From: Methylomonas sp. EFPC3
Lineage (GTDB): Bacteria; Pseudomonadota; Gammaproteobacteria; Methylococcales; Methylomonadaceae
NCBI RefSeq assembly: GCF_029643245.1
Contig: NZ_CP116398.1
Coordinates: 1,240,001 to 1,304,000 of the forward strand
Direction of reading: 5' to 3'
DNA length: 64,000 nt
Shown: positions 57,605 through 64,000 of the stretch, one piece after another
Position numbering within the stretch: position 1 is the first letter of the stretch
Layout: the number at the start of each line of letters is the position of its first letter
Program-made: the position numbers and the translations under genes
Notes under the pieces: generated by a model
The model's database searches: none
Seen by the model: the letters and a program-made list of their open reading frames with translations, nothing else
Told to the model about the DNA's origin: nothing

Positions 57605-59134
57605 TTAGTCGCTTGCCGTCTTGAATCGGGTCGCAGCGCCCAGCAAGCCGGTGACGAAGAAGGCTGTGCCGACCAAGGTAAAGCGCAGATTCAGTTTTTC
57701 CAACGCCAGATCGTCGGTCGCATAGAGCATGAAGATCACGGCAATACCGCCCCAGGCCAGAAAGCGCAATCCGGCAGCTATGGCGGCTTGACTCAAGGTT
57801 TCGGCGTCGCTGGCCGGCGCATCCATCCGGTAGGCGACGAAGCCGCTGATCAACGCCGGCATGATCCCCCACCGGGCATGGTCGAGGAAACTGTCCAGGA
57901 AATTGAAGTCACCGCGATGGTAGAAAGTCAGCTCCAGGATGAAAGTGGATATCGAGGTGCTGACCACGAAGCCGACGAACATCATCGCCATATAAAAGCC
58001 GTAGTAGCGGTCGGCCGGCTCCTGCTGGTGGCGAAAAGCAACGCTGCGCAATACGAACACCAGGGCGATCGGCAGCACGTAAATCGCAATCGAATAGGCA
58101 ATCCAGCGCAACGTGGTGTAACTGAAGTGCGACAGCGGCTTGTCCGGAAACAAAAACACGTTGTGCAACGCTACCGAGACTTCGCGCCCCAAAATCACGC
58201 CGAAAGTGGTCGCGGCTGCAAAAATCAGCAGGTATTTATAGGTATGCTTCAGCCGCGCCTCATGGACGTTACCGCCCAGTTCCTTCACGGTGGCCCAGAT
58301 TTCGTTCTCATTGGCGCTGCCGAACACAACCAGCGCCGCCAGCAACCGGCACAGCAGCCCACTGAGCCGGTCCAGTTCCTTCAGTAGATTGACAGTCTTG
58401 GTGTAGTGCGGCTCGGCCTCCTTCCATACCGCGACCTTTTCCGACATCGCGTTATAGGAAATGCAGATTTCGCCCCATTTCAGCGACGGTTCGCTGAACA
58501 GCCGCCGGTAAGACGATTGGTCGGCATAATGCTGAATTCGGTCGAACAACAGGCTGTTATGGGCCCATTTGTACTCGACCGTGGCGCCGGCTTTGTCGAA
58601 ATCGCCGGCGTCGATGCTTTGCACCAACAGGCGGTCGGCAATCTGGCCTTTGATTTTGTCGTCCACCGCCGACAGGCGGGATTTGATCAAGGCGTTGTAG
58701 ACCTCGACCGCTTTGGTCGGGATCGCGAACGCATCGTGTATGCTATCGCGCAAAATCAGCAGCGGATTGAACGCGCTTTCCCAACCGATCAAAAACAGCA
58801 CGACACCGGCGGCGATCAGCGGCAGCAACTTGTTGCCGTCCAAACCGTACAACAGCTCGACCAGGCTGCCGGCCCGCAGGTGGCTGACGACCAAGGTCAC
58901 CAACGGCTCCAGCGGCAGCCATTGCCAGGTCAACAAACAAAACAACGCCGCCATCAAGGCACAGTACAAACCGATTCCGGTCCAGTAGGTGCTGCGGCGA
59001 ATGAAGTATTGCGGCAGAGTCGGTTCCGCGCCAAGCTGGATCCGGCGCTTTTGAAACGAACGGTAGGCCAGCACCGCGGCTGCCGCGGCGCCCAGCAACT
59101 GAATCGCAAAATTAATCAGAAATTCGATGGTCAT
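57605..59134 (-). CDS. Large multi-pass membrane protein of unknown function
   Basis: A 509-residue protein. Hydrophobic helices are at about residues 5-22, 46-72, 95-115, and several in the second half (roughly 310-500), with a central soluble part of about 170 residues (DSIHDAFAIPTKAVEVYNAL and following). No family is recognised. The start MTIEFLINF is preferred over the upstream frame since it begins in a membrane helix. It has a strong terminator and follows the HDOD gene on the same strand. Confidence 0.68.
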   Translation of the reverse strand: MTIEFLINFAIQLLGAAAAAVLAYRSFQKRRIQLGAEPTLPQYFIRRSTYWTGIGLYCALMAALFCLLTWQWLPLEPLVTLVVSHLRAGSLVELLYGLDGNKLLPLIAAGVVLFLIGWESAFNPLLILRDSIHDAFAIPTKAVEVYNALIKSRLSAVDDKIKGQIADRLLVQSIDAGDFDKAGATVEYKWAHNSLLFDRIQHYADQSSYRRLFSEPSLKWGEICISYNAMSEKVAVWKEAEPHYTKTVNLLKELDRLSGLLCRLLAALVVFGSANENEIWATVKELGGNVHEARLKHTYKYLLIFAAATTFGVILGREVSVALHNVFLFPDKPLSHFSYTTLRWIAYSIAIYVLPIALVFVLRSVAFRHQQEPADRYYGFYMAMMFVGFVVSTSISTFILELTFYHRGDFNFLDSFLDHARWGIMPALISGFVAYRMDAPASDAETLSQAAIAAGLRFLAWGGIAVIFMLYATDDLALEKLNLRFTLVGTAFFVTGLLGAATRFKTASD

Positions 59135-59235
59135 TGTTCCTACGGGTTGGTAGAGAAAGGAAGTCCGCGCCCAAGCACGCGGCCTGTCGCGCATTCTAAT
59201 GCAAAGCCGCCGCAATTAGCGACCGTATCGACAGC

Positions 59236-60072
59236 TCAGGCCGACAAGGCCAACGAATCTTCCAAAGCAATTTCCAGCTCGGCCAGTGCGATTTCGGACA
59301 AACCGAGCCGGGCCGCTTCTTCGCTGCTGGAGACCACCAAGTCCGGTTGGGGTTGGGAGGCAATACCCAGCTTGTACGCCACCATGTCGGCTACCCGCAC
59401 CACCAATTCGACGGTACCGGTATCCTCGGTAACCGGCCGATGATGGGACTCGGCGACGTTACAATAGGTTTCGGGCAGATTCCAGGACCGCAGCAGCCAG
59501 GCGCCTCTGGCTTCGTGCTGGCGAATCAGCAATTCGAGCTGCAAATCCTCCGGCAAATTCAGTTTGGGATCCTGAGCCCGCAAATCATCCAGGCAGCGCA
59601 ATAGCAGCAATTCGCCGATGTCGTGAAACAGGCCGGCCATGAAGGCCTCTTCGGCGATCGCATGGAAGGACAGCCGTTTCGCCAACCATTCCGCGCCCAA
59701 CGCCACCGCCACGCTATGCTGCCACAGCTTGGCCATGTATTTTTCAGTCGCAGAGTCCCGCGCGCTGAACATGCCCTTTTGCATTACCAGGGTGGCAATC
59801 TGGACGATACGCGGCAAGCCCAGACGCACGACTGCGTCTTTGACGGTGTTTACCGAACTCAGGCCGGCATAAAACGACGAATTCGCTACCCGCAGGATCT
59901 GGCTGGCCAAGCTGGCGTCCATCGCCAGTTGTTTGGCGATGTTATCCAGCGAACGGTTTTCGTCTTGCAAGGCCTGCCGCAATTCCGTTACCGCGCGCGG
60001 GAACACCGGCAGCGCACCGGCGCCGCTGGCGATGGATTCATCGATCATATCCGTTAATGATTTTTCGCTCAT
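59236..60072 (-). CDS. HDOD domain protein
   Basis: A 278-residue HDOD protein: LPVFPRAVTELRQALQDENRSL, DASLASQILRVANSSFYAG and the VKDAVVRLGLPRIVQIATLVM helix; then a near-intact HD-type motif in GLFHDIGELLLLRC. It starts 18 bases after the GspE-like ATPase gene, suggesting they act together, for instance in c-di-GMP-linked pilus or secretion control. Confidence 0.88.
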   Translation of the reverse strand: MSEKSLTDMIDESIASGAGALPVFPRAVTELRQALQDENRSLDNIAKQLAMDASLASQILRVANSSFYAGLSSVNTVKDAVVRLGLPRIVQIATLVMQKGMFSARDSATEKYMAKLWQHSVAVALGAEWLAKRLSFHAIAEEAFMAGLFHDIGELLLLRCLDDLRAQDPKLNLPEDLQLELLIRQHEARGAWLLRSWNLPETYCNVAESHHRPVTEDTGTVELVVRVADMVAYKLGIASQPQPDLVVSSSEEAARLGLSEIALAELEIALEDSLALSA

Positions 60073-60090: not shown

Positions 60091-61989
60091 TCAGCGACTG
60101 CCCAGCAAACGGCGCAGCTCGTAAAGGGGACGGGGCTTGCCGAAGCGCGGCAGGTTGCGGATCACTTCTTGCAGTGAAGTAATTCCGGCCGCGGCCTTGA
60201 CCAGCCCGTCTTCGACTAAAGTCACCAAACCGGCGGTCTCCAGACTGACGCGGCGGATTTCGTAGGATGTCTTGCGTTGTAAGATCGCATCCTTGACCGA
60301 CTCATTCATCGACAACAACTCGAACACGCAAACCCGCCCGGAGTAACCGGTAAAACGGCATTTATCGCAGCCCTTGCCCAACAGAAAATGGGCGCCGATC
60401 ACGTCGTCCGCCGTCAAATTCAGCCGTCGGAGCAGGGCCGGATCGGGCTGGAACGGTTCTGCGCAATGCTTACAGACTCGGCGCAACAAACGCTGGGCAA
60501 CCACCGAGACCACGGTCGACGAGATCAGAAACGCCTCGATCTCCATGTTCAACAGACGCAACAGGCCGCCGATACTGTCCTCGGTATGGAAGGTAGTCAA
60601 TACCTTGTGGCCGGTCAGCGCGGCCTGAATTGCCGTATCGGCCGAGAATCGGTCGCGGATCTCGCCGAGTACGATGATATCCGGATCCTGGCGCACGATA
60701 TGGCGCAGGGTTTCTTCGTAGGTCAAATTGATTTTCGGGTTGATCGAGCACTGGGCAACGCCATCGATCACGTATTCCACCGGGTCTTCGGCCGAAACGA
60801 TACTGACTTCCGGACCGTTCAAATAGTCGACCGCACTGTATAGGGTCGTGGTTTTGCCCGAACCGGTCGGCCCGGTAATGATAATCACGCCGGTCGGGAC
60901 ATCCAGCGAATCCAGCAGGAACCGCTCCAACATCAGCGGCGCCATCCCCACTTCATGAATATCCAGCAATTCGGTTTTGCGGTTCAACAAGCGCAGTACG
61001 ATCTTCTCGCCGTTGATGGTACTGAAAAACGACGCCCGCATGTCGATCACATGATGGGTGGCGACCTGCTCGAACAATACCCGGCCGTCCTGATGCCGGC
61101 GCTTTTCGGCGATATCGGCGCCGGCCATGACCTTGATCCGGCTGATCATGGCCTGGGCCATTGCGACCGGGAAATCCCGATAGTGCACCATCAGGCCGTC
61201 GATCCGAAAACGGACGCGCAACTTATGCTCCAACGGCTCGATATGGATATCGCTGGCCGCTTGGCGGATTGCATCCTCGAAAATTTCATTGACCGAGGCA
61301 ACGGCAGACTGCTCTCCGAAGGCGGCTTTCTCCTCCCGGGCATTACGTTCGTAATTCAGCAAAAAACGCATGATCTGGGAATAACGGCCCACTGCCGGAA
61401 TCACCTCGGCACCAAGTACGTGTCGTGCCGTTGCGATCGCGGTTTGATCCATGGGGTCGCCGAACGCGACCAACACGCCGTCGACTTGTTTTTCGATCGG
61501 CAGAAAGCAGTGCTTGTTCGCCGACTTCAGCATCTGTTTGGTCATCAGACTCTGATCGACGTTGGCGAGGCTGAGGTCGATCACGGATATGCCCATCAAA
61601 TCCGCCAACACTTCCAGCATCTTGGCTTCGGAAATCAGATTGCGCTCGACCAGGATTTCGCCCAGGCGTTTGCCTCCGCCTGCCTGCTGTTGCTGGGCCA
61701 AAGCCAGTTGCAAATCGCTATCGCTGATAAAACCGAATTCGACCAGAAACAAGCCCAATTTGACTTTTAACGGATGACTGCGGAACACCTCGACCAACTG
61801 CGCATGGGTGACGTAACCCAAATCGCACAACACCACCAGAATCGGCTTGGGCGATTCCAGCTTGCCCTGCACGCGTTGCGCATATTTCAATTTGGCGCCG
61901 TCAAGCACGTCCTGCTCGACTAAAAGTTGGAGGAAGGAATCGATGAATTGAGTGCCGGAATCGGCAGAGCTAACGTCGCGGGATTTCAT
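60091..61989 (-). CDS. GspE/MshE-like secretion or pilus ATPase with MshEN domains
   Basis: A 632-residue type II secretion/type IV pilus assembly ATPase. Its N-terminal part has MshEN-type segments that bind c-di-GMP (VKLGLFLVEFGFIS and RLGEILVERNLISEAKML). The ATPase has Walker A GPTGSGKTTTLYS, Asp box, Walker B DIIVLGEIRD and His box TFHTEDS; the zinc site is CKHC and CDKC. The start is taken at the second ATG (61989), the first being 61995. No other pilus or secretion genes lie in the window. Confidence 0.9.
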   Translation of the reverse strand: MKSRDVSSADSGTQFIDSFLQLLVEQDVLDGAKLKYAQRVQGKLESPKPILVVLCDLGYVTHAQLVEVFRSHPLKVKLGLFLVEFGFISDSDLQLALAQQQQAGGGKRLGEILVERNLISEAKMLEVLADLMGISVIDLSLANVDQSLMTKQMLKSANKHCFLPIEKQVDGVLVAFGDPMDQTAIATARHVLGAEVIPAVGRYSQIMRFLLNYERNAREEKAAFGEQSAVASVNEIFEDAIRQAASDIHIEPLEHKLRVRFRIDGLMVHYRDFPVAMAQAMISRIKVMAGADIAEKRRHQDGRVLFEQVATHHVIDMRASFFSTINGEKIVLRLLNRKTELLDIHEVGMAPLMLERFLLDSLDVPTGVIIITGPTGSGKTTTLYSAVDYLNGPEVSIVSAEDPVEYVIDGVAQCSINPKINLTYEETLRHIVRQDPDIIVLGEIRDRFSADTAIQAALTGHKVLTTFHTEDSIGGLLRLLNMEIEAFLISSTVVSVVAQRLLRRVCKHCAEPFQPDPALLRRLNLTADDVIGAHFLLGKGCDKCRFTGYSGRVCVFELLSMNESVKDAILQRKTSYEIRRVSLETAGLVTLVEDGLVKAAAGITSLQEVIRNLPRFGKPRPLYELRRLLGSR

Positions 61990-61995
61990 TCTCAC

Positions 61996-62352
61996 CTTGA
62001 ACTGAAGACCGATCGGAGTCCGTGCGCAATAGACACGGGACAGATTCCGCTTTCCATGAATACTAAGTTACTAGATTTTGACGGTCCAATACAGCGTTAT
62101 ATTGTTACAAACCCGCGTAAATTTTACGACCGCCAAGCGCTTGCCGTTGAGCCCGGCACCGTCCCATTCGAAAACAACAGTTTACGCGCCCTAGAGGGCA
62201 GTTTTGGCTCTAGCTTATAAGCCCGGCCGCCAGGAACACCGCGACACCAGTAACTCGCTGTCTTTATAATTGATTAGGCAATATTCTGCCACTCCAGTCC
62301 GCCAACGGCGGACTCCAGCACAAACCCGCTTTCGCCAGAGGAGGTCGTCATC
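61996..62352. other. Intergenic region before the hybrid kinase
   Basis: About 350 bases between the divergent ATPase and kinase genes. No gene or known regulatory element was recognised. The end, AGAGGAGG just before 62353, is the kinase ribosome binding site. Confidence 0.5.
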
Positions 62353-64000
62353 ATGCAAAGCATTGCCGAATTTTTCGGGACCAAGGATTTCATGCCACAC
62401 GGATATTGCTTGGCCTGGAGTCCGGGCCTGCTCTGGCTGATGGTGACTTCCGATGCGATTATGGCTTTGGCCTACTTTACCTATCCGATCGGCATCGCCT
62501 ACTTCGTTTGGAAACGGAAAGACTTGTCCTACCGCTGGCTGTACCTCGGCTTTTTTATCACCTTCATTCTGACCTGCGCCGCCACCCATCTGTTATCGGT
62601 GGTGACGGTCTGGATTCCGCTTTACTGGCTGGATGCCTATGTCAAAGCCGTATCCGCCCTGGTGGGCATCGCCACCTCTTTCGCGATCTGGTGGGTCATA
62701 CCGCGCGCGCTGAAATTGCCAAGCCCGGCGGAATTGCAGCGCGCCCGCGATCAGGCCGAAGCCGCCAACAAAGCCAAAAGCGTGTTTTTGGCTAACATGA
62801 GCCACGAACTGCGCACACCGCTGAATGCCATTCTCGGTTTTTCCAGCCTGATGCAAAAAGATCCGCAGCTTCCGGCCAGCCAACACCACAATCTGGCCAT
62901 CATCAACCGCAGCGGCGAACATTTGTTGAGCTTGATCAATAATGTACTGGAAATGGCAAAAATCGAGTCCGGCCGGCTGCAATTGGAACGTAGCCGCTTC
63001 GATCTCGGCGCCATGATCCGCGACGTCAGCGACATGATGTCGATGCGGGCGCGGGACAAGGGTTTGCAATTGTTAATCGACCAAACCTCGGAATTTCCGC
63101 GCTTCGTTTGCGGCGACGAGGCGCGTCTGCGCCAAGTGTTGATCAATCTGCTCGGTAACGCCTTGAAATTTACCCAGCAAGGCGGCGTCACACTGCGTCT
63201 GGGCACGCAACAAAACAACCACAGCCATCTAAGGATCGAAGTGGAAGATACCGGTCCCGGTATCGCCGACAGTGAGCGGGAGCACATCTTCGAGCCCTTC
63301 GTGCAACTCGGTGACCAGGGCGACAGTAAAGGTACCGGCTTGGGCTTGACCATTACCCGCCAGTTCGTGCAACTCATGGGCGGACAGCTGACGCTGGAAA
63401 GTAGCGTCGGCAAGGGTTCGTTGTTCCGTATCGATTTACCGCTGCCGGAGTTGGCGGAGCCGGAGGTCCGTGCCAGCGCAGCGGATAGCCTCGGCGAAGT
63501 GACCGGTCTGGCCCCTGGCCAGCCGCAATTCCGGATTTTGATCGTCGAGGATCAACTGGAAAATCAGCTGCTACTCGGCCGGCTGATGACCGATATCGGC
63601 ATGCAAATCCAGTTAGCCAAAGACGGCGCGCAAGGCGTGGCCCTGTTCGAATCCTGGCAACCGCACCTGATCTGGATGGACCGGCGCATGCCGCACATGG
63701 ACGGCATGCAAGCCACCCAAGCCATCCGGCAGTTGCCAGGCGGCGATCGGGTCAAGATTGTCGCGGTCACCGCCTCCGCGTTTATGGAGCAGCGCGAGGA
63801 AATACTGCAAGCCGGTATGGACGACTTCATCCGCAAACCCTACCGGGCCGAAGAAATTTACGCCTGTCTGGCCAAACACCTCGGCGTCGAATTCGTTTAC
63901 CGGACGGAAATCGCCGCTGCCCAGGACGCAAGCTTGGATCCGGCGATGATTGCCGCCCTGCCGGAACCATTGCGGAAAGACTTGAAAACGGCACTGGAAA
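62353..64000 (+). CDS. Hybrid histidine kinase with ethylene-receptor-like membrane domain (partial)
   Basis: At least 549 residues, cut by the window end. Residues 20-115 hold three membrane helices homologous to plant ethylene receptors: [13 protein letters not shown] with Asp34 and Tyr41, and [10 protein letters not shown] with Cys75 and His79, matching ETR1 Asp25, Tyr32, Cys65 and His69 that bind Cu(I). Then coiled linker, HisKA with His151 ([11 protein letters not shown]), HATPase (N-box [10 protein letters not shown]-boxes DTGPGIA, GTGLGL) and a receiver with Asp443 in LIWMDRRMP. Start ATG 62353 has AGAGGAGG. It is likely to sense ethylene or a copper-bound small molecule. Confidence 0.87.

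Follow-up and report, generated by a model that had tools for sequence, protein, structure and literature searches.

The window analysed here is a 64,000-nucleotide stretch of the Methylomonas sp. EFPC3 genome (contig NZ_CP116398.1, forward-strand positions 1,240,001 to 1,304,000), which ends within a gene encoding a 590-residue hybrid histidine kinase (Table 1). The open frame proposed for this gene on the forward strand in a preliminary description of the window was confirmed, with a GGAGG sequence preceding the ATG. A response regulator gene begins 23 bases past the kinase stop codon, and the divergent neighbours upstream encode a secretion-type ATPase and an adjoining HDOD-domain protein. 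Further along the same strand as these neighbours, positions 57605-59215 (-) encode a 536-residue protein that shows hydrophobic stretches on inspection and matched no Pfam profile at E 0.001.

Table 1 Features at the kinase locus, in window numbering; L003 is the locus extract reaching beyond the window.
Feature	Position (strand)	Basis	Remark
HDOD-domain protein	59236..60072 (-)	Pfam	adjoins the ATPase gene
Type II/IV secretion-type ATPase with MshEN domain	60091..61995 (-)	Pfam	divergent neighbour of the kinase gene
GGAGG, likely ribosome-binding site	62340..62344 (+)	read from sequence	ahead of the ATG
Hybrid histidine kinase gene, 590 aa	62353..64000 (+) within the window		continues to window-equivalent 64125 (L003:8353-10125), 125 bases past the window end
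ETR1_N (PF25487) three-helix sensor domain	62428..62718 (+)	Pfam, predicted model	residues 26-122
Asp34 codon	62452..62454 (+)	alignment	ETR1 Asp25
Met37 codon	62461..62463 (+)	alignment	ETR1 Ile28; Met in 21/21 of the clade
Tyr41 codon	62473..62475 (+)	alignment	ETR1 Tyr32
Tyr44 codon	62482..62484 (+)	alignment	in place of ETR1 Ile35
Cys75 codon	62575..62577 (+)	alignment	ETR1 Cys65, copper ligand
His79 codon	62587..62589 (+)	alignment	ETR1 His69, copper ligand
Gly105 codon	62665..62667 (+)	alignment	in place of ETR1 Ser98
HisKA domain	62776..62973 (+)	Pfam, sequence	residues 142-207; HELRTP box (His151)
HATPase_c domain	63112..63447 (+)	Pfam, sequence	residues 254-365; N, G1, G2 boxes
Receiver domain (Response_reg)	63535..63864 (+)	Pfam, sequence	residues 395-504; phospho-acceptor Asp
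Response regulator gene, receiver + HD-GYP	64149-65147, outside the window (L003:10149-11147)	Pfam, sequence	

The N-terminal region of the kinase matched the Pfam ETR1_N profile (96.5 bits, 1.1e-27; curated cut-off 27), bearing out the proposed ETR1-type sensor domain. A chance match of four residues was ruled out by this score, which lies far above the cut-off. In a structure predicted for residues 1-137 (mean pLDDT 84.7), long helices span residues 24-54, 61-84 and 91-120; with the profile cut-off passed, the three predicted N-terminal helices support membership of the ETR1_N family. All four kinase boxes (H, N, G1, G2) were found, as was the receiver aspartate, identifying the protein as a hybrid histidine kinase. 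The layout given earlier, of three helices followed by kinase and receiver domains, agrees with the model helices and with the Pfam matches to HisKA, HATPase_c and Response_reg. No Pfam match to a PAS or GAF domain was found between the sensor and kinase domains, and searches of the PDB returned no relative by sequence up to E = 1 and none by fold at E <= 0.001.

Alignment with AtETR1, for which we used a reference sequence that we take to be correct, matched Asp34, Tyr41, Cys75 and His79 to ETR1 Asp25, Tyr32, Cys65 and His69, as had been proposed, so that the copper-site residues Asp25, Cys65 and His69 all have equivalents in the kinase. The spacing, described as the same, is indeed shared for the Asp-Tyr (7) and Cys-His (4) pairs, but from Tyr to Cys the kinase counts 34, against 33 for ETR1. 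The equivalent of ETR1 Ile35, Tyr44, had been left out of that residue comparison. The seven residues that we take to be those needed for ethylene binding are Asp25, Tyr32, Ile35, Pro36, Ile62, Cys65 and His69; the kinase has six of these, the exception being Ile35. Excerpts of PMC6586836 count Ile35, Pro36, Ile62, Cys65 and His69 among the residues essential for ethylene binding, and excerpts of PMC11819568 give the requirement for Asp25. The excerpts of PMC6586836 also label I28, T94 and S98 at copper-proximal ethylene sites, and report a moderate effect on binding for S98 and a signalling effect only for T94, I28 being untried there. Pocket positions were mapped through the computational ETR1 model of that study, which is not a solved structure.

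Among 73 distinct domains sampled, a set that leaves out AtETR1 and one fragment, the position equivalent to Ile35 was Tyr in 21 and Ile in 52. The Tyr35 domains formed one clade, with support of 100/99 in a tree whose bootstrap had not settled and an SH-aLRT of 80 in a quick tree from which the trait columns had been removed. Across the 237 genomes of the family, every listed match reaching 67% identity falls within the set of 21, a single match in each of 18 genomes; Methylomonas koyamae SM2 carries an identical (100%) sensor domain. The next matches listed had at most 54% identity, and the 12 of these that were examined (L057-L068) were of the Ile type. As the first Ile-type sample was skewed to high scorers, 16 further genomes, low scorers included, were searched. 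Tyr occurred there only in two rows already known, and Ile in all 21 other readable rows (two of them representing one stretch), even with the copper ligands lost.

The Tyr35 clade keeps the equivalents of Cys65, His69, Pro36 and Ile62 in 21/21 domains, and those of Asp25 and Tyr32 in 20/21. Around these the pocket differs at several nearly fixed positions: Ile28 is replaced by Met in all 21 (Ile in 48/52 others), Thr94 by Ser or Ala in all 21 (Thr in 49/52) and Gly66 by Ala or Thr in all 21 (Gly in 50/52), while Ser98 is replaced by Ala or Gly in 19/21 (Ser in 52/52) and Ala102 by Val or Ser in 19/21 (Ala in 50/52). In view of these changes and of the missing Ile35, the label of ethylene receptor attached earlier to the kinase was not retained; the observation behind it largely holds, and its interpretation is supported in part. 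In the first sample, the 34-residue Tyr-Cys spacing occurred in 21/21 domains of the clade versus 0/53 others, the presumed AtETR1 sequence included. As an exclusive mark of the clade, the extra helix-2 residue was rejected: L116, outside the clade, also counts 34 (in a looser alignment), so only Tyr35 serves as the clade marker. In one genome (G268; L053 and L100), sensor-domain matches of the Tyr-type gene lie in two frames, and this gene may therefore be frameshifted or misassembled. Other ETR1_N matches (L126, L135, L138) have altered copper-site residues or are too short for a full reading; apparently decayed or repurposed copies of the domain exist in Methylococcales.

The host was surmised to be a methanotroph, and this is borne out by the genome (Methylomonas, M. 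koyamae group; 4.44 Mb, one contig), which contains two PF02461 monooxygenase genes alongside two ETR1_N matches. ETR1_N was found in about half of the Methylococcales genomes (160/311, 156 of them over the cut-off; raw counts, uncorrected for relatedness), and in 16 of 369 genomes of a class sample (12 over the cut-off; raw counts). Subtracting from the latter the four Methylococcales genomes among those listed, three of them with ETR1_N, left 13 of about 365 (at most 365) genomes outside the order, 9 of them over the cut-off. The ETR1_N carriers among the matches listed all belong to families f1 and f4, while ETR1_N was absent from the PF02461-positive members of f2 (12 rows) and of f5 (7 rows); the domain is not universal in methanotrophs.

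The Tyr35 clade also reaches two Gallionella MAGs, one Nitrosomonadales MAG and one unplaced Proteobacteria MAG. PF02461 was not found in these four MAGs; the control genomes were silent too, yet the same profile was found in 240/311 Methylococcales genomes. The clade is therefore probably not strictly tied to methane oxidation, unless the MAGs are incomplete or mis-binned. A search for soluble methane monooxygenase (PF02332) gave no match, in the control genomes likewise.

The statement that ethylene is a substrate or inhibitor of methane monooxygenase finds support in the literature. According to excerpts of PMC11507031, ethylene is co-oxidised by methane monooxygenase to toxic epoxyethane and inhibits methanotrophs, suppressing the oxidation of methane both in soil and in pure culture; growth of Methylohalobius was inhibited completely above 0.5% ethylene and partially at 0.125% and below. 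In the limited literature searched, no description of an ethylene sensor in methanotrophs was found: the word 'receptor' is absent from the text of PMC11507031 covered, PMC5863443 mentions methanotrophs in its reference list only, the excerpts of PMC12857756 contain neither an ethylene-receptor nor a methanotroph term, and among the papers listed for genus names and c-di-GMP, an ethylene receptor was absent or appeared in reference lists only.

The regulator encoded after the kinase consists of a receiver and an HD_5 domain (Pfam), and carries the motifs HDIGK and HHERLDGSGYP, the latter conforming to HHExxDGxGYP, identifying it as an HD-GYP protein. We compared 18 named Tyr35-clade loci (L086-L103), 17 of them assessable since L103 is cut by a contig end. 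A c-di-GMP regulator follows the kinase in 8/17, and in 7/17 (L086, L087, L088, L089, L092, L095, L097) it is an HD-GYP protein. The kinase and regulator frames overlap by one base in L088 and by four in L092, and the regulators of both have HHERLDxSGYP rather than HHExxDGxGYP; that of L095 is 46% identical to the regulator at the window. In L097 the kinase architecture differs and a small receiver gene sits between the two genes, the output being HD-GYP again. In the Nitrosomonadales MAG, the regulator (L102:2101-3405) shares 76% identity with its Methylomonas counterpart over the receiver region, which is joined to PAS-GGDEF with no HD-GYP domain, so that the predicted output shifts from breaking to making c-di-GMP. 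The kinase-regulator pair is often kept outside Methylomonas despite differing surroundings.

The HD-GYP regulator of L101 lies two genes upstream of the kinase. A search for HD-GYP relatives at E 1e-10 found none in L090, L091, L093, L094, L096, L098, L099 and L100 (8/17), and no c-di-GMP enzyme appeared among the Pfam-scanned downstream neighbours of L090, L091, L093, L094, L099 and L100. At full length, the kinases of L093, L094, L096 and L098-L101 share only 47-53% identity with the window kinase, and may therefore signal elsewhere. In both Gallionella MAG loci, a gene of the sodium/hydrogen-exchanger family (PF00999; L090:9023-10234 and L091:9668-10879) lies downstream of the Tyr-type kinase.

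In two loci from the window's genus, L069 (= L086) and L070, the MshEN-type ATPase gene is likewise a neighbour of the kinase; MshEN domains bind c-di-GMP in other bacteria. Among the scanned neighbours, no gene of epoxide or ethylene metabolism was recognised beside the kinase bar one glutathione S-transferase-like gene, which we judged a weak candidate. It lies about 2.3 kb downstream of the kinase on the other strand (L003:12463-13134 (-)), and stays beside the kinase only in the same two loci, L069 and L070. Some glutathione S-transferases act on epoxides.

Compared with Arabidopsis ETR1, in the sequence that we take to be correct, the window kinase shares Asp25, Cys65 and His69 and the order of sensor, kinase and receiver, but lacks a GAF domain and has the equivalents of Ile35, Ile28, Thr94, Ser98, Ala102 and Gly66 replaced. 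Bacterial ethylene receptors are known in cyanobacteria and proteobacteria, and AzoEtr1 of Azospirillum brasilense binds ethylene and alters biofilm formation (excerpts of PMC11819568). The ETR1_N gene of the Sp7 record (L109), which we took to be AzoEtr1, the record being without gene names, has the canonical signature. Its sensor domain is 40% identical to that of the window kinase, and the two have the Asp, Tyr, Pro, Ile62, Cys and His equivalents in common; AzoEtr1 has Ile35 and canonical spacing, whereas the window kinase has Tyr35 and one extra helix-2 residue. Both combine an ETR1-type three-helix domain with a kinase and a response regulator encoded directly downstream, but the excerpts of PMC11819568 describe AzoEtr1 with a PAS domain and mention no receiver, its regulator being 135 residues long and lacking an output domain, in contrast to the in-chain receiver and HD-GYP partner of the window kinase.

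The explanation that we favour, with slightly more belief than doubt, is that the kinase acts in the membrane as a copper-loaded sensor of some small ligand and controls c-di-GMP through the HD-GYP regulator. The domains, the residues, the clade and the recurrence of the gene pair were observed directly, and from them we infer copper binding, a ligand, phosphotransfer to the regulator and a physiological output as follows. Cu(I) is most likely bound in the ETR1-type three-helix domain by Cys75 and His79, with Asp34. A small ligand binding on the copper or beside it, such as ethylene or a related small gas or an alkene, or else altered copper loading, would change autophosphorylation of His151, and the phosphate would be relayed via the in-chain receiver to the response regulator whose gene lies just downstream. 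This regulator, with its complete HD-GYP motif, would degrade c-di-GMP, giving a shift between attached and motile states. The kinase is probably wired in this manner to c-di-GMP, the second messenger of the switch between swimming and sticking. As the copper site is kept and the pocket rebuilt in the Tyr35 clade, the ligand or the affinity probably differs from those of canonical receptors; ethylene is ecologically reasonable as a ligand, and a possible one for the clade.

A tentative proposal, in which our doubt outweighs our belief, takes the Tyr35 clade for a distinct class of copper-containing membrane sensor, descended from ethylene receptors with the metal kept and the pocket rebuilt, reading a non-ethylene signal and setting c-di-GMP in methanotrophs, with relatives in Gallionella-type iron oxidisers. 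Candidate signals under this proposal are copper status, carbon monoxide, acetylene or another small gas and, most boldly, methane. We regard it as rather unlikely that the kinase is an ordinary ethylene receptor, with Tyr35 and the extra helix-2 residue as neutral drift and ethylene signalling a toxic co-substrate. Such a receptor would be consistent with the retained copper ligands, Pro36, Ile62 and Tyr32, with the enrichment of ETR1_N in Methylococcales, with ethylene binding by AzoEtr1, which has the canonical seven residues (excerpts of PMC11819568), and with the inhibition of methanotrophs by ethylene (excerpts of PMC11507031). However, Ile35 is reported as essential for binding (excerpts of PMC6586836), and is present in 52/52 other domains; the additional rows from outside the clade that could be read, 21 in number with two representing one stretch, have it too, low scorers included. 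Several pocket positions have, moreover, changed together within one clade, and close relatives occur in the two Gallionella MAGs and the Nitrosomonadales MAG, where no PF02461 was found (the control genomes being silent).

Conservation of the copper ligands while the surrounding gas pocket changed would also suit a direct sensor of Cu(I) or copper status, in which the bulky Tyr fills the pocket and occupancy of the copper site is the signal. The biology of methane monooxygenase in methanotrophs is under copper control, which favours such a sensor, but Gallionella is not known to have a comparable copper demand, and the scanned neighbours contained no recognisable copper-handling gene. While excerpts of PMC12643061 report that Cu(I) loading alone stiffens ETR1, we consider this alternative distinctly unlikely. 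That the sensor domain is degenerate and now serves only to tether the kinase to the membrane is very improbable: degenerate ETR1_N copies do exist in the order, such as L135, with changed Cys and His positions, but in the Tyr35 clade Cys and His are kept in 21/21 domains and Asp in 20/21, and most of the replaced positions are nearly fixed.

The second ETR1_N protein of the Methylomonas genome, encoded outside the window (L004:9442-11637 (+), corresponding to G000:C1:2505441-2507636), has the architecture ETR1_N-PAS-GGDEF-EAL. It shares the sensor family and a c-di-GMP output with the window kinase, but has all seven ETR1 residues with canonical spacing, and carries its output enzyme in its own chain. 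Judged by these residues, this paralog is the better ethylene-receptor candidate, and the window kinase the less likely ethylene receptor of the two. Among 42 Ile-type Methylococcales frames, the paralog included and many of them cut by locus ends, a third (14) contained GGDEF, 3 EAL and 6 HisKA. At least two ETR1_N matches were found in 17/18 genomes with a Tyr-type gene, the exception being G284, as expected if a canonical copy is kept and a second is put to other use. Canonical and pocket-altered copies within one Methylomonas genome offer a direct route to what fixes ligand choice at the copper site.
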